Positions 4,342 through 12,755 of a DNA stretch of 21,714 nucleotides are shown here, piece by piece; position 1 is the first letter of the stretch, and each line of letters opens with the position of its first letter. The notes under the pieces were generated by a model, which saw only the letters and a list, made by a program, of their open reading frames with translations, made no database searches and was not told the DNA's origin. Origin of the DNA: a virus; IMG/VR virus record IMGVR_UViG_3300009172_000076, positions 1 through 21,714 of that record; one strand, 5' to 3'. Position numbers and translations under genes: made by a program.

Positions 4342-4431
4342 ATGAGTGATTTATTATTTTATATTAAGTGGGGAATAATCGGGTTTGTAATCGGTTGGCC
4401 CATTGGTTACGCAATAGGAACATTTATCTAA
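4342..4431 (+). CDS. 29-residue single-span membrane peptide
   Basis: ATG 4342 to TAA 4431 encodes 29 residues beginning MSDLLFYIKWGIIGF, almost wholly one transmembrane helix (residues about 10-28) with small-residue GxxxG-like spacing (GFVIGWPIG). It starts 2 nt after the DUF3310 stop and its stop overlaps the ketosynthase ATG (TAATG), a classic coupling arrangement, which is the main evidence that it is translated. AGGAA (4416-4420) within it serves the next gene. It could be a membrane tether or regulator for the lipid enzymes that follow. Confidence 0.6.
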   Translation: MSDLLFYIKWGIIGFVIGWPIGYAIGTFI

Positions 4432-5594
4432 TGAAAGATCGAATAGTAATTACTGGTGTTGGTTTGGTGGACACACTCGGAACATATCCAATGGAGTGTT
4501 TTGAGAACATGATCAGTGATCACTATGAACACCCAGTTGATTTTAAGACAGATATAGAGTCTCTCAAAGGATTGGTGTGTTTCAAGTCACGTGATGTGAA
4601 CTATACGATTCCAGCTGGTATTCGTAAACCAGTCTTCGGTTCTCTATCAACAGCATCTAAAAACGCTCTTCATGTTGTACAACAGGCAATGGGAGATATC
4701 GACAGTACCGATGTCGCGGTTGTATTCAGTTCGATTGCAGGAAAGGAAGGTATTAGGAATACAGACTTCTGTAATAAGATGGAGGGTGGTAAACGACTAT
4801 CCCCCCGAACTGCTGTACAGTATCTGAGGGACTTCTCCGCAGGGGTAATCAGTCAGACATTCGACTTCCGTGGTGCGTGTGTCAGTATGGATGCCGCTTG
4901 TGCGACTGGACTGTACTCTATTGATTATGCAATACACCTACTGGACACACATAGGTTTGTTATTGTTGGTGGGACAGATAATCCTGCTATGGATGATAAT
5001 ATGTTCATCTTCAGTCAGTTGGGTGCGCTTGGCACTGCGTCAAAACCCTTTGATAAGAAACGTGATGGGTTCGTCATGGGCGAAGGTGCGGGTGCCTTGT
5101 TATTAGAGAAAGAGTCTGAAGCACGGTTACGTGGTGCGAACATCATTGGGTACATTAACACCGTGTCTCACCATTCAGATGGTGCACTTGGTACACCTAC
5201 TGCACCAGACCCAAACAGTACGGGATCAATTGCGTCTATGACATCTGTCACCCAGAATATAGTTGGAGATGTTGCCTTTGTTAACGCACATGGTACATCA
5301 ACACCAATGGGAGATGACCTAGAGTACAATGCGATTCAGGAAGTCTTACCCAAAGTTCCGGTGATTAGTTTCAAGTCAAAGATTGGACACTCTCTTGCGG
5401 CCAGTGGTATCAATGAAACAATCTATAGTCTGTTGTGTCTCTATAACGGGGTTATACCGAAGAACTTTAATATAGATGAGTGTGACCATGAGTTTGTTTA
5501 TAAATACAAGCATCGATTGACAAGTAAAATTGCTGTGAAGAACTCGTTCGCATTTAGTGGAAGGTCTTCGTCACTGGTTCTGGAGGTAGAATGA
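4431..5594 (+). CDS. Beta-ketoacyl-ACP synthase (KAS I/II, FabF-like)
   Basis: Thiolase-fold enzyme that condenses acyl groups with malonyl-ACP in fatty-acid elongation. 387 residues, slightly shorter than bacterial FabF (~410). The N-terminus RIVITGVGLV is typical. The catalytic triad is complete: Cys157 in DAACATG, His287 in VNAHGTSTP, His320 in KSKIGHS. The usual C-terminal GFGG loop reads AFSG (about 374-377), a change in a loop near the active site that may affect acyl choice. Start 4431 overlaps the upstream membrane-peptide stop; an in-frame extension from 4368 is rejected because it reads through that gene. The 3' end overlaps the desaturase by 4 nt. A phage-borne KAS is uncommon. It might instead act on a polyketide-like substrate. 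Confidence 0.9.
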   Translation: MKDRIVITGVGLVDTLGTYPMECFENMISDHYEHPVDFKTDIESLKGLVCFKSRDVNYTIPAGIRKPVFGSLSTASKNALHVVQQAMGDIDSTDVAVVFSSIAGKEGIRNTDFCNKMEGGKRLSPRTAVQYLRDFSAGVISQTFDFRGACVSMDAACATGLYSIDYAIHLLDTHRFVIVGGTDNPAMDDNMFIFSQLGALGTASKPFDKKRDGFVMGEGAGALLLEKESEARLRGANIIGYINTVSHHSDGALGTPTAPDPNSTGSIASMTSVTQNIVGDVAFVNAHGTSTPMGDDLEYNAIQEVLPKVPVISFKSKIGHSLAASGINETIYSLLCLYNGVIPKNFNIDECDHEFVYKYKHRLTSKIAVKNSFAFSGRSSSLVLEVE

Positions 5595-6304
5595 TAACTG
5601 AATATCTAGGTAAAAACAGTGGGTACGTACATACAATATTTTATATAACGTGTGTACTCTTTACTGTGTTGTGGGTGCCGACATTATCAGTTGTCGAGTT
5701 CTTAGTCTGGTTTGTCGGTGCTCATACTTTTGTCGGATATCTAGTCTCTGCTTTCCAACATCGATACTGTGCACATAAGAGTTGGCAACCGTCAAGGTTC
5801 GTTGAAGTTCTCAGTGTTTTCCTGTGTGCCGGATTCGTGTTGATACCGAATATGGGATGGGCATCTGTCCACAAAAATCACCACAGATACACCGATACCG
5901 AGAAAGACCCACATGGTAATGTGCATAGTGTCTGGGATAACTTCATGGCATTCAACATTGCCCCCTCAAAACATGGTTGGCCTCGATGGATGTTCCGTGA
6001 CCTACTGTACCTTTACCAATTAAAATACTATTGGGAAATTGCGATCCTCTTTGGGGCATTGATGTTTGTGATTGGTATTGGTGAACTATGGTTATCGACT
6101 ATTGCTGTTGCATACATCTTCCAAGTCACTCTCAATATTGTAGGTCACCCAAATAGAAGTCCTGCTAATAGACCGTGGTTGGGACTATTATACAGTGGTG
6201 AACTATACCACAAGAACCACCATGATAACCCCAGCCTATCTAGGTTTGGTTTGATCGATGTTCCATACCTTTTATTCATAAAGTTCTTAGATACCAAGAA
6301 ATAA
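5591..6304 (+). CDS. Membrane fatty-acid desaturase (acyl-CoA/acyl-lipid delta-9 type)
   Basis: Introduces a double bond into fatty acyl chains using a di-iron centre. 237 residues with about four membrane helices. The three histidine boxes are present: HRYCAH (57-62), HKNHH (94-98) and HKNHH (207-211), together with the NIVGH extra ligand region. Short forms like this occur in bacteria and marine phages. ATG 5591 follows GGAGG (5582-5586) and overlaps the ketosynthase stop, so the two enzymes are translated together. An electron donor (ferredoxin or cytochrome b5) is not encoded nearby and would come from the host. Confidence 0.92.
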   Translation: MITEYLGKNSGYVHTIFYITCVLFTVLWVPTLSVVEFLVWFVGAHTFVGYLVSAFQHRYCAHKSWQPSRFVEVLSVFLCAGFVLIPNMGWASVHKNHHRYTDTEKDPHGNVHSVWDNFMAFNIAPSKHGWPRWMFRDLLYLYQLKYYWEIAILFGALMFVIGIGELWLSTIAVAYIFQVTLNIVGHPNRSPANRPWLGLLYSGELYHKNHHDNPSLSRFGLIDVPYLLFIKFLDTKK

Positions 6305-6307
6305 CGC

Positions 6308-6336
6308 TTGACAAGTGATGCATAATCTGATATAAT
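6308..6336 (+). promoter_or_regulatory. Sigma70-type promoter, leader family B
   Basis: TTGACA (6308-6313), 17-nt spacer, TATAAT (6331-6336). The -35 sits in AATAACGCTTGACA, shared with the promoter at 14014. From the -10 onward, 26 nt (6331-6356) are identical to 17780-17805, so promoter and 5' leader belong to a repeated module. Confidence 0.9.
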
Positions 6337-6870: not shown

Positions 6871-6897
6871 AAATCGACTACTCAGTCGATTTTTTTT
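6871..6897 (+). terminator. Rho-independent terminator
   Basis: Perfect 9-bp inverted repeat AAATCGACT (6871-6879) / AGTCGATTT (6884-6892) with a 4-nt loop, running into eight T residues (6890-6897). It closes the promoter-6308 unit and isolates the late operon that starts 31 nt further on. Confidence 0.88.
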
Positions 6898-6927: not shown

Positions 6928-6935
6928 TATAAATA
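6928..6935 (+). promoter_or_regulatory. T4-type late promoter driving the curli/cyclase operon
   Basis: TATAAATA, the exact T4 late -10 consensus, in an AT-rich intergenic gap directly behind a terminator and with no convincing -35. In T4, transcription starts about 6 nt past this box, which here is at or within a base or two of ATG 6941, so the first gene would have almost no leader. It is the only promoter seen in the gap ahead of the gene block 6941-13233. Confidence 0.85.
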
Positions 6936-6940
6936 ACAAC

Positions 6941-7219
6941 ATGGATATACTAACCCTCATTTCAGAATTGGGGTTTCCTATTGCATCTGCCTTAATAGGT
7001 GGTTTCTTTATGTTTCTGACACTAAAGTATATTATGGATGGTGTGATAGGTCAGGTGAAATCCCTCAAAGGTATCGTAGGTAGCCTTGATAATCGTGTCA
7101 AAACTATGAATCATGATATGATTCGTATGGATACTACCATGTGTGTTGTTCTGGGAATAAGACCAGACCTCAATCGTATTAGTCGTGCAGACGGTAAGAA
7201 CGATGCGAGGAGAGATTAA
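6941..7219 (+). CDS. Membrane protein, GFPI family (paralogue of 7695)
   Basis: 92 residues. One N-terminal membrane segment (about 10-32, GFPIASALIGGFFMFLTLKYIM) followed by a helical, likely coiled-coil domain (KSLKGIVGSLDNRVKTMNHDMIRMD) and a charged tail. The N-terminal pattern MD-x8-GFPI-x-x-A is shared with the protein at 7695, so the two are paralogues and the ATG at 6941 is the natural start despite the very close late promoter. I recall similar proteins in marine T4-like phages without known function. Size and topology are compatible with a holin, but the long coiled-coil tail is not typical. Confidence 0.78.
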   Translation: MDILTLISELGFPIASALIGGFFMFLTLKYIMDGVIGQVKSLKGIVGSLDNRVKTMNHDMIRMDTTMCVVLGIRPDLNRISRADGKNDARRD

Positions 7220-7695
7220 TGATCGATCCAGTATCCGCAGTAATGACAGCAACTGCCGCATTCAATGGTATTAAGAAATTAGTAGAACGTGGTCAAGACA
7301 TGGAACACACGTTTACACAGATTGGCAAGTGGTACGGTGCCGTTAGTGATTTTAACGAAGCGAAGAGACAGGCGGAGAACCCTCCACTCTTTCGTAAGTT
7401 GATCAACAAGTCTTCGGTAGAAGAAGAAGCAATGAACATCTTCATCTCTAACAAGAAGATTAAAGAAGAAGAGACCCAGTTGCGTGAGCTCTTACTCTAT
7501 TCCTATGGCCCCAGTGCATATCAGGAATTAACTCAGTTACGGAGAGACATCCGAGAGAAGAGGGAAAGGGACGTGTATGCACAAGCGAGGAAACGGAAGT
7601 CACTCTTCTGGAACGCCCTTGGTTGGACATCAGTACTGGTGTTAGGTTATGGATTCTTCATAGTATTTAAACTCATATATTCGAATATCCCGTAA
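7219..7695 (+). CDS. Coiled-coil protein with C-terminal membrane anchor
   Basis: 158 residues: an N-terminal Ala-rich segment (MIDPVSAVMTATAAFNGIKK), a long charged helical region (about 55-130) and a C-terminal membrane helix (about 131-152, ALGWTSVLVLGYGFFIVFKL). It shares single-base overlaps with both neighbours, between the two GFPI paralogues, so the three are likely a complex or act together. I recall MIDPVSA-type proteins in marine myophages; their function is unknown. With both flanking proteins membrane-anchored, a role in the inner membrane during late infection (lysis timing or support of secretion) is a reasonable inference. Confidence 0.77.
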   Translation: MIDPVSAVMTATAAFNGIKKLVERGQDMEHTFTQIGKWYGAVSDFNEAKRQAENPPLFRKLINKSSVEEEAMNIFISNKKIKEEETQLRELLLYSYGPSAYQELTQLRRDIREKRERDVYAQARKRKSLFWNALGWTSVLVLGYGFFIVFKLIYSNIP

Positions 7696-7943
7696 TGGAT
7701 GTTGTATCAGTAGTTAACGATTTCGGTTTTCCGATAGTTGCGGCTGTCGGTATGCTTTATATGATTTACTTTGTGTGGAAGACCATTACAAACGAAGTCG
7801 AAAAGAACTTGTCCGAAACAATGACGGTGTTGATAGGTCTCATTGACCGTATCAGGATGTTGGATAATGATATAATTAGATTGCAACAGAAGTTAGACAC
7901 CGCAATCGAAATGAGGAGAAAAACAGATGAAGAAGAGATATAG
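7695..7943 (+). CDS. Membrane protein, GFPI family (paralogue of 6941)
   Basis: 82 residues with the same plan as the 6941 product: MDVVSVVNDFGFPIVAAVGM, a membrane helix, then a heptad-like helix (LSETMTVLIGLIDRIRMLDNDI continuing into a basic tail). Sequence identity is concentrated in the N-terminal GFPI motif and the helix ending DxIRx. The start overlaps the previous stop (TAATG) and the end overlaps csgF by 17 nt. The duplication with divergence of two small membrane proteins in one operon recalls holin/antiholin pairs, but there is no direct evidence. Confidence 0.77.
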   Translation: MDVVSVVNDFGFPIVAAVGMLYMIYFVWKTITNEVEKNLSETMTVLIGLIDRIRMLDNDIIRLQQKLDTAIEMRRKTDEEEI

Positions 7944-8412
7944 TTGGATACAACTCTTTGAGGGTACGTCACTGACAGTTGCGATGATTCTGATGATGTT
8001 GATAATCACAGAAGTATCAGTTGCCGCACCCATAGAGCACAAATTCAAATCTCCTTCCTTCAGTGGTATTAATCAGTCTAGTCACTATTTGACGATAGAG
8101 AACCAAGAGACCTCTAGGAAACAGGCGATAAAACAAGAGATTGAAGACCTCCAAGAACAACTGGAGAGGGACGCAGAGAATACTACTCTAGCAAAATTTA
8201 TTAGGAATGTGGAATCACGTATTTACTCTACACTATCCAGACAGATCGTTGACGGTATGTTCGGAGAGAACCCAAGCGACACGGGTTCGTTTAACATCGA
8301 AGGTACGGGCATATCATACGTTACAGACGGTGATAACGTAATATTAACAATAACAGACGAGAACGGTAATGTCACGACTATTACTATTCCCCTTGGTGAT
8401 TTTGGTATCTAG
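7927..8412 (+). CDS. csgF: CsgF-like curli assembly factor
   Basis: CsgF binds the CsgG outer-membrane pore at its extracellular mouth and helps place the fibre nucleator. 161 residues (E. coli 138) with a long Sec signal (1-33, cleavage near SVA/AP). The mature N-terminus HKFKSPSFSGIN mirrors the CsgF pattern FxFRNPNFGGN, the part that plugs into CsgG. The middle helix FIRNVESRIYSTLSRQIVDG (91-110) matches FTQAIQSQILGGL, and the C-terminal strands (YVTDGDNVILTITDENGN) match the CsgF beta region. An insertion at about 60-85 (charged, helical) is extra to the E. coli form. It precedes csgG with a 44-nt overlap, so the pair is coupled. Confidence 0.88.
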   Translation: MKKRYSWIQLFEGTSLTVAMILMMLIITEVSVAAPIEHKFKSPSFSGINQSSHYLTIENQETSRKQAIKQEIEDLQEQLERDAENTTLAKFIRNVESRIYSTLSRQIVDGMFGENPSDTGSFNIEGTGISYVTDGDNVILTITDENGNVTTITIPLGDFGI

Positions 8413-9169
8413 TTGTGCCAGTCTCGGAGGAGGTAATTTCGAGATACCAAGTGTGGAAGAACCGAAAGTACAACTTACTCTGTTACAGAAAGAGTTAAAG
8501 AATGTTTCGGAACCGACTAGGAAACCCACGGTGGCAGTGTATGAATTCACTGACCAGACGGGACAGAAGAGACAGAACAGTAGTGGCGGAACCTCATTCA
8601 GTTCTGCGGTTACTCAGGCACCCAATGTATATTTGATAAGAGCATTGACACGTGCATCCAACGGAAACTTCTTCCGAGTGGTTGACCGTCAAATTATTGA
8701 CCATGTGACGAGGGAACGACAGTTAATCCGTCAAACCCGACAATCATACGAGGGAAACGACTCTCAGAAGCTGCCAGCACTCACTTTTGCTGGCATGATA
8801 ATTGCAGGAGGTATAGTAGGGTACGATACCTCTGTTGACACAGGCGGAGCTGGTGCTAGATATCTTGGCATCGGTACTTCCCGTGAATATAGTAGAGACA
8901 CTGTGACTATCAATATTCGATTAGTGTCTGTGGCAACAGGTGAGGTTTTACTTGATGTGATATCAAGCAAGACCATACTCTCCACCGCTTTTGGCGGAGA
9001 TGTGTTTAAATTTATCGAACAGGGTACTGAACTGGTTGAGATTGAATCGGGCAGTACAAAAAACGAATCCGTTTCCATTGCAACACAAAGGGCGATAGAA
9101 GCGGGAGTCTTGGAACTTATACTGAGAGGAAGTAAGTATGGTTTCTGGACGCTTAATGGAGAGAAGTAA
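8369..9169 (+). CDS. csgG: CsgG-like outer-membrane secretion pore lipoprotein
   Basis: CsgG forms a nonameric outer-membrane channel that secretes unfolded curlin subunits. 266 residues (E. coli 277). The lipoprotein signal is short, with lipobox LVSSC (Cys16). Landmarks shared with E. coli CsgG, by eye: VAVYEFTDQTGQ (56-66), the loop ending TSFSSAV (75-81), whose Phe77 would correspond to constriction Phe56 while Asn55 becomes Ser, GGIVGYDTSVDTGGAGARY (147-165), IRLVSVATGEVL (183-194) and SKTILS (200-205). The last ~15 residues of the E. coli protein are missing. ATG 8369 lies inside csgF, and the overlap encodes the whole signal peptide. No disabling changes are seen. Confidence 0.94.
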   Translation: MSRLLLFPLVILVSSCASLGGGNFEIPSVEEPKVQLTLLQKELKNVSEPTRKPTVAVYEFTDQTGQKRQNSSGGTSFSSAVTQAPNVYLIRALTRASNGNFFRVVDRQIIDHVTRERQLIRQTRQSYEGNDSQKLPALTFAGMIIAGGIVGYDTSVDTGGAGARYLGIGTSREYSRDTVTINIRLVSVATGEVLLDVISSKTILSTAFGGDVFKFIEQGTELVEIESGSTKNESVSIATQRAIEAGVLELILRGSKYGFWTLNGEK

Positions 9170-9170
9170 A

Positions 9171-9905
9171 ATGAACGCAAAGCAAACGGGTGCGATTCCT
9201 ATGTTCGCTATGATGTTCGTGATTGGTGCTGTGTATGCAGACAATGAAATATATATTGATCAAGTAGGAAGTAGTACTGCTATCGAGATTATTCAAGATG
9301 GTAGTGGCAACAAAATAGGTGGCGGACTCACTGATGAAACAAAGATGTTACTCAGTGGTGACGATATGGACATTAACTTAAACTTCAGTGGTTCTACGAA
9401 CAACTTGATTGGTTCCCTGATTGGTTCTAATTCGGTACTAGACGTAGACGTGACAGGGTCAGGTAACGACCTGTTCTTTGATGTTGATAAAGATAATGCC
9501 TATGGCGCTACAGGCGGGAACTATCTCGTATCTATCACTGGTGGTAACAACGCAGTGGACTTTGATTTTGGTTCACTTGATACCGCAAACGATACGGACT
9601 TTGACTTTATATTGGACGGTGATTTTAACACTGGCGATATAAACATAGATGCATCTAGTCTGACATTCGACATGGATGTGATATCAGATAATTCCAACCT
9701 AGATTATTCAGCAACTGGTTATGATGGCCATCGGTTTATATTGACTGGTACAGGAAACTATTGGGACATTGATGTTACCCAAGAGTCTACTCTACAGTCT
9801 GATTATTTGGAGATATATTATAGTGGTTCAGGCACATCTACCCAAAACGCTACTGTTTGTATTGTTCAGTCTGACGGTGGTTTCGTCAACACTTGCGGCC
9901 AGTAA
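9171..9905 (+). CDS. Curlin-repeat-like secreted protein (candidate fibre subunit)
   Basis: 244 residues with a Sec signal (cleavage near VYA/DN, residue 23). Right after it is one clean curlin-type unit: Q31-x-G33-x-x-T36-x4-Q42-x4-N47 (IDQVGSSTAIEIIQDGSGN), which matches the CsgA/CsgB QxGxxN...Q...N pattern. Further Gly/Asn turns follow at uneven spacing (SGSTN 73-77, GSGN 96-99, TGGN 114-117, TGGNN 123-127, TGTGN 192-196), separated by strongly alternating Asp/hydrophobic strands (DVDV, VDFDFG, DFDFIL). A Cys pair (230, 242) ends the protein. ATG 9171 starts 1 nt after csgG, which suggests it is the CsgG client. It could alternatively be another beta-solenoid adhesin. No clear extra canonical units. 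Confidence 0.72.
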   Translation: MNAKQTGAIPMFAMMFVIGAVYADNEIYIDQVGSSTAIEIIQDGSGNKIGGGLTDETKMLLSGDDMDINLNFSGSTNNLIGSLIGSNSVLDVDVTGSGNDLFFDVDKDNAYGATGGNYLVSITGGNNAVDFDFGSLDTANDTDFDFILDGDFNTGDINIDASSLTFDMDVISDNSNLDYSATGYDGHRFILTGTGNYWDIDVTQESTLQSDYLEIYYSGSGTSTQNATVCIVQSDGGFVNTCGQ

Positions 9906-10938
9906 TGACGTAGGTTTGGTTGACCGAGCAGTTGGATGGAGACAGATAGTAAGGAATGAACAACCCTTAGAACCCAACAAGGGTGAAGAGGTGATATCTA
10001 AGGACGATCTTCGCACAGGCGAGGGTCGTTTGCAGGTACGATTCAGAGATGACAGTAAATTAAGAATGACCGAACACACACGTATTGTGATTGACAATGT
10101 AGTGTTTGATGATGACCCAAGCAAGTCTGACTTGGCGATGACCTTTGCCCAAGGTACTGCAAGATTCATATCTGGTCAGTTGGGTAAGGTAGACAAAGAG
10201 AATATCAGACTCAAGACCCCTACCGCATCTATCGGTATCAGGGGTACAGACTTCACAGTAACCGTTGATGAGTTCGGTAAGACGCTCGTGGTACTTTTGC
10301 CAGACGTTAACGGAATCTCTTCGGGTGAGATTATTGTTTCGACAATGACAGGTGAAGTCACACTCAACAAACCTTTCCAGTCTACCACAGTAGACGTGAT
10401 GGAGAACCCCCCTAGTGCGCCAGCAATCCTAGACCTTACTCTGGATATGTTGAACAACATTATGATTATCAATCCCCCTAAAGAGAAACAGTCTAAAGAA
10501 GACTTCATGGATACTATAAACGCATCCAAGGGCATTAGTTCGTTAGACGTGGACTTTCTTAACGAAGACTTGTTACAAGAAGAAGAACTTGGGAAAGACT
10601 ATCTGGAATTTAATGAACTCGACATCAACTACTTGGACGTTGACTTGTTAGAAGACCTACTGGATAATTTCGATTCTTTGGGAGAGGACGTGTTGCAAGA
10701 ACAACAGTCTAGTGGCGACTTACGTATCGAAGGTACTGAAGAAGGGTTCGACCCAGTCACACAGGTTGCCACTATAGTAGAGGGCGACAAGGTGACGATA
10801 CGCAGAGAGGTGAATGACAAGGTGGTTATCTCGGTAGACAAGTCAGCTGCGACAGTTATAAGTATAGAGCAGGATGGTAAGGAACTAGAGGCAATCAAAC
10901 TTAATGGTATCGACAACTTGATAAGTATAGTACAATGA
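9823..10938 (+). CDS. FecR-domain periplasmic/exported protein with curlin-like C-terminus
   Basis: 371 residues from GTG 9823 (GGAG at 9809-9812). This start gives a good Sec signal (LPKTLLFVLFSLTVVSSTLA, cleavage near 25) encoded wholly inside the end of the curlin-like gene. The FecR domain (about 30-150) shows LRTGEGRLQVRFRDDSKLRM, MTFAQGTARFISG and TPTASIGIRGTDF, all typical. Next comes an acidic Leu/Asp-rich stretch with repeated LDVDFLNEDLL / LDINYLDVDLLEDLL units (about 235-285). The last 22 residues (350-371) read Q-D-G-x4-A-x3-N-G-x2-N-x5-Q, close to one curlin unit. FecR domains in bacteria often sit beside CHASE2 cyclases, as here (4-nt overlap). A CsgB-like nucleator role is inferred. 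Confidence 0.82.
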   Translation: MVQAHLPKTLLFVLFSLTVVSSTLAASNDVGLVDRAVGWRQIVRNEQPLEPNKGEEVISKDDLRTGEGRLQVRFRDDSKLRMTEHTRIVIDNVVFDDDPSKSDLAMTFAQGTARFISGQLGKVDKENIRLKTPTASIGIRGTDFTVTVDEFGKTLVVLLPDVNGISSGEIIVSTMTGEVTLNKPFQSTTVDVMENPPSAPAILDLTLDMLNNIMIINPPKEKQSKEDFMDTINASKGISSLDVDFLNEDLLQEEELGKDYLEFNELDINYLDVDLLEDLLDNFDSLGEDVLQEQQSSGDLRIEGTEEGFDPVTQVATIVEGDKVTIRREVNDKVVISVDKSAATVISIEQDGKELEAIKLNGIDNLISIVQ

Positions 10939-12755
10939 AGACATGGCACGTATTCGTAACACTTGTGATACTGGTGGGACTGAGGTTACTTGACCCGTTC
11001 CTATTAGAGAGTACTCGACTTTCATTCTTTGACTCATTACAACGTGGTCAGGAGACCCAACTGTCCGAACAGATTGTCCTTGTTGATATTGACGAGGAGA
11101 CTCTGGCAAAGTTTGGTCAGTACCCAATCCCACGTAAGGTAATGGCAGATGAAATCGATAAGATAGAAGGTAGTCTTATTGCGTTCAACATTCTGTTCAG
11201 TGAACCTGACAGGGCGGGTGGAGACGAATACTTTGCGGACATCCTATCGTGGAAGAATACAGTAGTTGCCATTGCACCGTCCAACAGAACCAACACAGAC
11301 TACAGACCTCCCCGTATCGGAACCGCAACGTTCGGTGACAGAGATGCCGAAGACTTCCGACCTTTGGTGGAAGGTATGCTTTTTGCACAACCAGTGATAC
11401 ATGAAGCGGCACTTGGTTATGGAACTATCTCATCCGCACAGGACGTTGATGGTATCATCCGTAGACAACCACTACTAGAAAACTTTGACAACAGACTCTA
11501 TCCCGCATTTGCGTTAGACGTATTGAGGGTTGCAGCCGGAGATTCGTCCTACCAGATATCAACAGACGAGTACGGTATTCAGTTTGTTCGTATTCCCAAG
11601 TTCACACCAATACCCACAGATAGTCAGGGTAACGTTACAGTCGCATACTGGAATGAGTTCAAGAGATATTCCTTTACTGACCTCTCAAGTATACCAGAGG
11701 GGTCTATAATCATCGTAGGCGGGAGTTACGCAGGTTCTAGTGTAGTTAGTACACCTATGGGTTCTATGTATCCGCATGACGTACAAGCAAATCTGGTCAA
11801 GACAATGATCGGGGGTGTGACCATCGAACGACCCCCAGAATTTATTTTCTATGAGCTCTTGACAACTCTTGTATTATGTGGTATAATCCTAGCTCTTCTA
11901 GGGAAGGCTGATATACTAATTTCAGGAGTGTCGTATGTCATCATAATTGGTGGTATTCTGTATGTGGTCAACGAACTATTCAATACCCAGTATCTCCAAC
12001 TAGACCCAACATTCCCAATTATCACATTGACCTTGGTGTTTGCTCACGGTTCCTTTGTTCAGTTCTATGTACAGTTCAAAGCTAAACAACTTATTAAAGG
12101 ACAGTTCGGTACGTACCTATCACCCGACATGGTAGATATGTTGGCCAAAGACCCCAGTCTACTGAAGTTGGGTGGAGAGAAAAAAGAGATGACATTCCTC
12201 TTCATGGACATTGTAGGATTCACCCCCATATCAGAACACTATAAAAACAAGGACGATGCGGAAGGGTTGGTTATACTCATTAATAACTACCTAAATGAGA
12301 TGACTAATATTATCCTAAATAACGGTGGAACCATAGATAAGTATATGGGTGATTGTATCATGGCGTTTTGGAACGCCCCCTTACCTTGTGAGAATCATGC
12401 TGAGATGGCAGTGAAGTCCGCAATAGAAATAGAAGAGAAGACAGATGAACTTAGACAGAGATACATTGCGGAAGGTTTACCACCGATTAACGTTGGAACT
12501 GGTATCAATACTGGGTCTTGTATTGTTGGTAATATGGGTAGTGAGTCACGGTTTGATTATTCAGTCATCGGAGACGCAGTCAACCTTGCCGCAAGACTTG
12601 AAGCAACTGCCGCAAGAGGAGACTATCTTGAATACAAAACTATCTACTCCAAAGCAACCAAAGACCAACTCATAGATATAGAGTCAAGTCCGATAGGACT
12701 CATTAAGGTAAAAGGAAAGGAAGAAGAAATTGAAATCTATACACATAATCGATGA
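10935..12755 (+). CDS. CHASE2-domain class III adenylate/guanylate cyclase
   Basis: 606-residue membrane sensor cyclase making cAMP (or cGMP) from NTP. One N-terminal signal/membrane helix (5-22), a periplasmic CHASE2 sensor (about 25-300, with VLVDIDEETLAKFGQYP and GSIIIVGGSYAG), three membrane helices (about 305-385), a short linker (FGTYLSPDMVDMLAKDP) and a catalytic domain (about 410-600). Catalytic residues look intact: metal-binding Asp425 (FMDIVGFT) and Asp473, base-binding Lys469 (DKYMGD), Asn550 and Arg554 (GDAVNLAARLE). The second base-selecting position is Ser543 where bacterial adenylate cyclases usually have Thr, so ATP is favoured but not certain. Overlaps fecR by 4 nt. Confidence 0.93.
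   Translation: MKTWHVFVTLVILVGLRLLDPFLLESTRLSFFDSLQRGQETQLSEQIVLVDIDEETLAKFGQYPIPRKVMADEIDKIEGSLIAFNILFSEPDRAGGDEYFADILSWKNTVVAIAPSNRTNTDYRPPRIGTATFGDRDAEDFRPLVEGMLFAQPVIHEAALGYGTISSAQDVDGIIRRQPLLENFDNRLYPAFALDVLRVAAGDSSYQISTDEYGIQFVRIPKFTPIPTDSQGNVTVAYWNEFKRYSFTDLSSIPEGSIIIVGGSYAGSSVVSTPMGSMYPHDVQANLVKTMIGGVTIERPPEFIFYELLTTLVLCGIILALLGKADILISGVSYVIIIGGILYVVNELFNTQYLQLDPTFPIITLTLVFAHGSFVQFYVQFKAKQLIKGQFGTYLSPDMVDMLAKDPSLLKLGGEKKEMTFLFMDIVGFTPISEHYKNKDDAEGLVILINNYLNEMTNIILNNGGTIDKYMGDCIMAFWNAPLPCENHAEMAVKSAIEIEEKTDELRQRYIAEGLPPINVGTGINTGSCIVGNMGSESRFDYSVIGDAVNLAARLEATAARGDYLEYKTIYSKATKDQLIDIESSPIGLIKVKGKEEEIEIYTHNR
11859..11887 (+). promoter_or_regulatory. Perfect sigma70 promoter sequence inside the cyclase gene
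   Basis: TTGACA (11859-11864), exactly 17 nt, TATAAT (11882-11887), inside codons for the first membrane helix after CHASE2. If used, it would transcribe the catalytic half and the 12730 gene without the sensor. No leader of family A or B follows it, so activity is uncertain. Confidence 0.4.

Follow-up and report, generated by a model that had tools for sequence, protein, structure and literature searches.

A predicted CHASE2 class III adenylyl cyclase as the last gene of a phage curli secretion module

The proximity of a cyclase gene to curli genes in phages has already been described. A cluster of curli, FecR and adenylyl cyclase (AC) genes with alphaproteobacterial affinity was reported in pelagipodophages and pelagimyophages by Wittmers et al. 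2022 (PMC9599517), whose passages on the cluster place FecR and AC outside bacterial curli operons. In their own passages on the cluster, Zaragoza-Solas 2020 (PMC7029224) and Buchholz 2022 (PMC9004378) discuss CsgG and CsgF and leave the cyclase aside, and the CHASE2 domain is not named in any of these three accounts of it. The section of PMC9004378 concerned states that no clumping was seen with phage Melnitz. On the cellular side, gating by CHASE2 has a precedent, because the S. meliloti cyclase CyaD1 produces cAMP constitutively when its CHASE2 is deleted (PMC5498481) and, in Campylobacterota, genes for CHASE2 cyclases are clustered with those for FecR-domain proteins (PMC9239204).

The curli module of the window

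The DNA analysed here (the window, 21,714 nucleotides) is an IMG/VR virus record that adds another case to the curli-FecR-cyclase cluster known in phages. The concern that its cyclase gene might lie in a contaminating bacterial contig was dismissed on the basis of the T4-like replicative helicase of the window (70% identical to that of Phage C48C1 and about 60% to those of cyanophages) and of the same locus in two isolate phages, HTVC008M and Melnitz, whose cyclases are 44.5% and 35.7% identical to that of the window, respectively. Relatives of this cyclase are encoded at no fewer than 598 other sites in viral contigs. The features of the module are the following:

6871..6892, plus strand: intrinsic terminator-like hairpin (9 bp stem and T run; consensus scan only), which divides the module from the upstream genes
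6928..6935, plus strand: T4-type late promoter motif TATAAATA, 5 nt ahead of the first gene of the module
6941..7219, plus strand: sm1, 92 aa, phrog_18771 (unknown function), with one N-terminal membrane segment and then a charged helix
7219..7695, plus strand: 158-aa protein with a C-terminal membrane segment, a non-core insert between sm1 and sm2
7695..7943, plus strand: sm2, 82 aa, paralogue of sm1, weakly similar to holin family phrog_4898 (E 1.4e-4)
7927..8412, plus strand: CsgF, curli secretion accessory protein (PF10614, E 1.2e-17)
8369..9169, plus strand: CsgG, outer-membrane curli pore lipoprotein (PF03783, E 4.2e-49; lipobox-like VSSC)
9138..9905, plus strand: curlin-repeat protein, assigned by homology and synteny with no Pfam match; true start probably at about 9171 (MNAKQTG...)
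9769..10938, plus strand: exported FecR-domain protein (PF04773, E 3.1e-12); true start probably at 9820-9838
10935..12755, plus strand: predicted CHASE2 class III adenylyl cyclase, full-length ORF of 606 aa
10956..11882, plus strand: part coding for the CHASE2 sensor domain (N-terminal TM, periplasmic domain and start of the next TM; PF05226 match)
12180..12731, plus strand: part coding for the class III cyclase catalytic domain, aa 416-599 (PF00211; Foldseek match to CyaB 3r5g)

The cyclase gene comes last in a module with the order sm1-(insert)-sm2-CsgF-CsgG-curlin-FecR-cyclase, and not a lone cargo gene. CsgF, CsgG and a curlin-repeat gene follow one another on one strand, as expected for a phage type VIII secretion (T8SS)/curli locus, the curlin being recognised through its homology and synteny with the 'curlin-associated protein' gp16 of HTVC008M and the curlin-repeat protein of Melnitz. 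The FecR-domain gene lies directly 5' of the cyclase gene and overlaps it by 4 nt, in agreement with the pairing of both genes pointed out in the preliminary description of this DNA; its start was revised on the basis of related loci, in which the homologous FecR begins about 1.11 kb ahead of the cyclase. The FecR-domain protein has an N-terminal hydrophobic segment that resembles a signal peptide. PF04773 was the only domain found in it, with no cytoplasmic anti-sigma domain before the TM of the kind that defines FecR iron-dependent anti-sigma regulators, and inspection of the ORF list of the window revealed no ECF sigma gene beside it. Rfam and tRNA searches of the window gave no matches.

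Genes, order and strand coincide with those of the pelagiphage T8SS cluster (HTVC008M gp14-19; Melnitz gp99-104). However, that cluster carries a second curlin gene between FecR and AC that is missing from the window, whereas the window differs in its 158-aa insert between sm1 and sm2 and in its upstream ketosynthase and desaturase genes. The insert protein was found in 4 loci including the window, all of them close relatives. The upstream genes (4368-6304) encode a fabF-like beta-ketoacyl synthase and a fatty-acid desaturase, a pair that PMC7029224, in its part on freshwater fonsimyophages, presents as unique to these phages, which are said there to be without curli; the window combines both traits. 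Perfect matches to the sigma-70 consensus (12/12, TTGACA-17-TATAAT) occur at 6308-6336 and at 11859-11887, the second one within the cyclase gene.

Catalytic site and selection on the cyclase

Pfam recognises in the cyclase a CHASE2 domain (PF05226, aa 8-316, E 1.7e-39) and a Guanylate_cyc domain (PF00211, aa 416-599, E 1.4e-18), arranged as in CHASE2 sensor cyclases, with an N-terminal TM, a periplasmic CHASE2, a TM bundle and a cytoplasmic catalytic domain. The AlphaFold model (mean pLDDT 86) displays a canonical cyclase domain and helices at residues 5-19, 303-324, 327-352 and 359-392. A Foldseek search with this model matched the catalytic domain to CyaB of Pseudomonas aeruginosa (3r5g; E 3e-16, 40% identity), the nearest solved relative, as well as to CyaC of Spirulina (1wc1); both share the class III adenylyl cyclase fold with the window but differ from it in their sensor domains. 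No solved CHASE2 structure was found in the PDB by sequence or fold search, and to our knowledge no ligand of a CHASE2 domain has been described.

The residues on which the preliminary description based its expectation of an active enzyme are all where it had placed them, and they are nearly invariant among 83 phage relatives. All six catalytic positions are occupied in the window (D425, K469, D473, S543, N550 and R554), including the two metal-binding Asp (D425 and D473), the base-selecting Lys469 and the transition-state residues Asn550 and Arg554 that characterise class III cyclases. D425, K469, D473 and R554 are unchanged in the 83 aligned phage cyclases and N550 is conserved in 81/82, while position 543 is occupied by S in 78, T in 3 and D in 1. 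A Lys at the first base-selecting position combined with Ser or Thr, instead of Asp, at the second is the pattern of class IIIb adenylyl cyclases, to which K469 and S543 (S/T in 81/82 phage cyclases) assign the window enzyme. Because Lys469 is invariant and position 543 conforms to this pattern, ATP is the likely substrate, so that the choice between ATP and GTP, initially regarded as left open by Ser543, now leans toward ATP. Pairwise dN/dS, calculated for pairs without saturated synonymous change, ranges from 0.06 to 0.19 for the whole gene and from 0.03 to 0.11 for the catalytic domain, which is under strong purifying selection. These low values and the presence of the same gene in HTVC008M and Melnitz bear out the early view of an intact cyclase carried by phages and subject to selection.

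Several variants deserve mention. A subclade of phage cyclases that includes Melnitz (L083, L263, L267, L274, L301, L306, L309, L312 and L315) displays coupled S543D and N550S changes within the motif YDxLGDxVSTxARxE; its members are without the transition-state Asn and may differ in activity or specificity. The odd motif of Melnitz had raised the suspicion of a domain swap, which was discarded when a larger phage clade turned out to share it. The cyclases of L034 and L045 are close in CHASE2 (dN 0.09) and distant in the catalytic domain (pN 0.27, pS saturated), a contrast that suggests recombination inside the gene. Finally, cyclase and FecR are broken into several ORFs in L241 (5413-8369), as is the cyclase in L308 (8565-10591), owing either to decay or to sequencing error.

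Conservation in phages and bacterial counterparts

The order sm1-sm2-CsgF-CsgG-curlin-FecR-AC is fixed in all 52 viral loci of the cyclase-seeded set (those with at least 4.5 kb upstream), with sm1, sm2, CsgF, CsgG and FecR on the cyclase strand in every one of them and a curlin detected in 49. A set seeded on CsgG, which does not presuppose the cyclase, yielded FecR in 46/46 loci and the cyclase in 42/46. When sm1 was employed as the seed, CsgF/CsgG followed in 26/53 loci; of those lacking same-strand CsgF/G downstream, 25 were examined, and in 24 a CHASE2 cyclase converges from the other strand, in many cases trailed by FecR, curlin and CsgG. Therefore, the cyclase is retained through inversions and splits of the module, independently of operon polarity. 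That sm1/sm2 remain linked to the cyclase in inverted modules as well is a new observation, and the notion of sm1 and sm2 as free-standing phage genes, raised by the 27/53 sm1-seeded loci lacking CsgF/G downstream, was rejected in view of these opposite-strand cyclases.

The same succession, CsgF-CsgG-curlin(s)-FecR-CHASE2 cyclase, exists in three bacterial genomes. The best bacterial relative, L084, belongs to a MAG titled Caulobacteraceae and encodes a cyclase 41% identical to that of the window; its operon (CsgF-CsgG-curlin-curlin-FecR-CHASE2 cyclase) is flanked by glycosyltransferase and peptidase/TonB-receptor-like genes. L204, from the genus of L084, contains the same 6-kb block with 87% identity between unrelated flanks, and L220, from another genus of the same order (Caulobacterales, if the name of the L084 MAG is right), carries the operon in a contig of 705 kb; its cyclase shares 49% identity with that of L084. 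Unlike the window, the three operons have chromosomal-looking flanks and lack sm1 and sm2, and their cyclases bear a C-terminal extension (688-691 aa versus 606 aa). HMM searches detected neither FecR nor cyclase in the remaining bacterial CsgF loci of this survey (17 fetched), and no CsgF/CsgG was found near 79 other CHASE2-cyclase loci. Since three loci have it and all these others do not, bacteria do possess the FecR-cyclase-curli operon, though rarely, a new finding that contradicts what is said of bacterial curli operons in the passages of PMC9599517 on the cluster. Alphaproteobacterial (Terasakiella, Thalassospira, Rhodospirillaceae) and SAR86 CHASE2 cyclases share domain order and catalytic residues with the window at 33-36% identity, but they are longer (about 725-805 aa for those placed in the tree) and are accompanied by FecR within about 3 kb in 13/79 cases and by no CsgF/CsgG nearby.

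The relation of the phage cyclases to these three bacterial ones was addressed by phylogeny, which had been proposed as a check at the outset; no consistent direction of transfer emerged from the trees. A first cyclase tree placed the bacterial sequences as sister to all phage ones (100/99), with wider phage sampling they branch at the base of the phage set, where the tree is not resolved, and in the CsgG tree they are nested among phages, although the AU test does not reject monophyly of the phages (p 0.31). Transfer as a unit between bacteria and phages is supported, and the cyclase and CsgG trees would accommodate both directions. The initial suggestion that FecR and cyclase had been taken up as a pair holds as far as their co-inheritance is concerned, given the common order in the three bacterial loci, but the unit appears to be the whole curli module. 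It could be argued that such an operon was captured entire from bacteria with the cyclase as an inherited passenger deprived of any role of its own in infection, as would fit the shared gene order and the missing receptor discussed below. Nevertheless, strong purifying selection on the catalytic domain, retention of the cyclase when inverted or apart from the csg genes and its presence in 42/46 csgG loci render this explanation quite improbable.

Probable late expression, hosts and possible function

At the expression level, the window alone contains 3 late-promoter motifs against 0.96 expected, a number reached in 9/100 shuffles and hence not significant. Among related loci, by contrast, TATAAAT occurs in the 80 nt preceding the first sm gene in 35/53 cases versus 56/847 other ORFs, and upstream of the internal genes of the module in 0-9%. 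This newly observed enrichment at the module start is in line with the late operon envisaged in the preliminary description and points to late transcription of the module. In many loci (L003, L009, L032, L061, L067, L078 and others), only 5-6 nt separate the end of the motif from the start codon of sm1, a spacing that would predict a leaderless or nearly leaderless sm1 message.

Regarding the hosts, the cNMP-binding domain PF00027 was found in none of 17 phage records, which include two complete isolates, and in 4/89 genomes of the SAR11 family, many of which may be incomplete, leaving 85/89 without it. This family was defined via two genomes recognised as SAR11 by four 16S probe sites. A class III cyclase match was present in 3/89 of its genomes; at least 2 of these 3 matches belong to phage-like contigs that also contain the module, and the clear class III cyclases in SAR11-family bins look phage-derived. 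One of the contigs, podophage-like and from bin G1264 (L234:6624-13670), shows the module immediately followed by spanin-like ORFs, a lysozyme-like endolysin ORF and a likely large terminase, calls that were read from the sequence and not HMM-tested. In another (L235, bin G1300), the module stands beside ORFs resembling Fe-S cluster assembly and terminase small subunit genes. Because cNMP-binding domains are missing from the 17 phage records and from 85/89 SAR11-family genomes, the cyclase product would lack a recognised receptor if the host of the window is SAR11. On the same grounds, the initial proposal that the enzyme raises cAMP to alter host programmes becomes doubtful.

PADLOC profiles for Pycsar cyclases hit the catalytic domain (E 2.7e-25), which could be taken to mean that its product counters or feigns nucleotide-based immunity as a decoy or Pycsar/CBASS-type element. 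These matches, however, span the generic catalytic domain only, no cNMP-binding or TIR/TM effector adjoins the gene, PF00027 is absent from the 17 phage records, and the cyclase is fixed to the curli module; such a role is thus very improbable. Pycsar defence proper was rejected, the neighbours being curli genes and none of them a cNMP-binding effector.

The main rival explanation concerns the small genes. In position and size, on which the identification relies, sm1 and sm2 correspond to the one or two short 'histidine kinases' of the PMC9599517 account of the cluster. No kinase domain (HisKA/HATPase) was detected by Pfam in sm1/sm2-type proteins (82-115 aa), even at E 5. Among 50,697 phage records, sm1 was found only in HTVC008M and the Melnitz isolates, and both genes occur almost exclusively with the curli-cyclase module. 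A match to holin family phrog_4898 (E about 1e-4), together with the late promoter motif at the module start and the location of the module in L234 ahead of lysis-like and terminase ORFs, would fit an outer-membrane pore or lysis-timing device with holin-like sm1/sm2, CsgG as the pore and the cyclase adjusting lysis as a timer or energy sink, a proposal akin to the pinholin idea in the relevant section of PMC9004378. Yet the similarity to holins is weak, extends over part of the protein and is limited to the sm2-type copies of the window and Melnitz; moreover, a complete curlin/FecR set is kept that a lysis timer would not need, and sm1/sm2 are hardly ever seen apart from the curli-cyclase module. 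Taking both sides together, lysis timing is unlikely.

The reading that we prefer, with a probability of about 0.5, is that the gene encodes a membrane-bound receptor adenylyl cyclase made late in infection, the CHASE2 of which, probably together with the FecR-domain protein, senses envelope state or curli export and controls the production of cAMP. The enzyme would reside in the inner membrane as a homodimer, with CHASE2 in the periplasm and the class IIIb catalytic domain in the cytoplasm, and it would be expressed late in infection as the last gene of a module that also supplies the membrane proteins sm1 and sm2, a CsgG/CsgF outer-membrane pore and exported curlin-repeat and FecR-domain proteins. 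With the FecR-domain protein as its periplasmic partner, CHASE2 would monitor the condition of the envelope or of curli export and, in response, activate cAMP synthesis from ATP inside the infected cell. A bolder extension, possible though rather doubtful, is that sm1, sm2, the FecR-domain protein and the cyclase constitute one phage-borne transmembrane signalling device, in which cAMP may report curli or envelope assembly in hosts without class III cyclase and cNMP-binding domain and may be read by an unrecognised phage or host receptor.

Viruses of abundant marine bacteria thus harbour a complete receptor cyclase that is strongly selected and tied to a surface-fibre secretion module, in contrast with most SAR11-family genomes, which have neither cyclase nor known receptor. 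This raises the testable question of what use a phage makes of cAMP in a cell without CRP-like proteins, and the bacterial operons provide a cellular counterpart in which the link between FecR, cyclase and curli may be approached by genetics.
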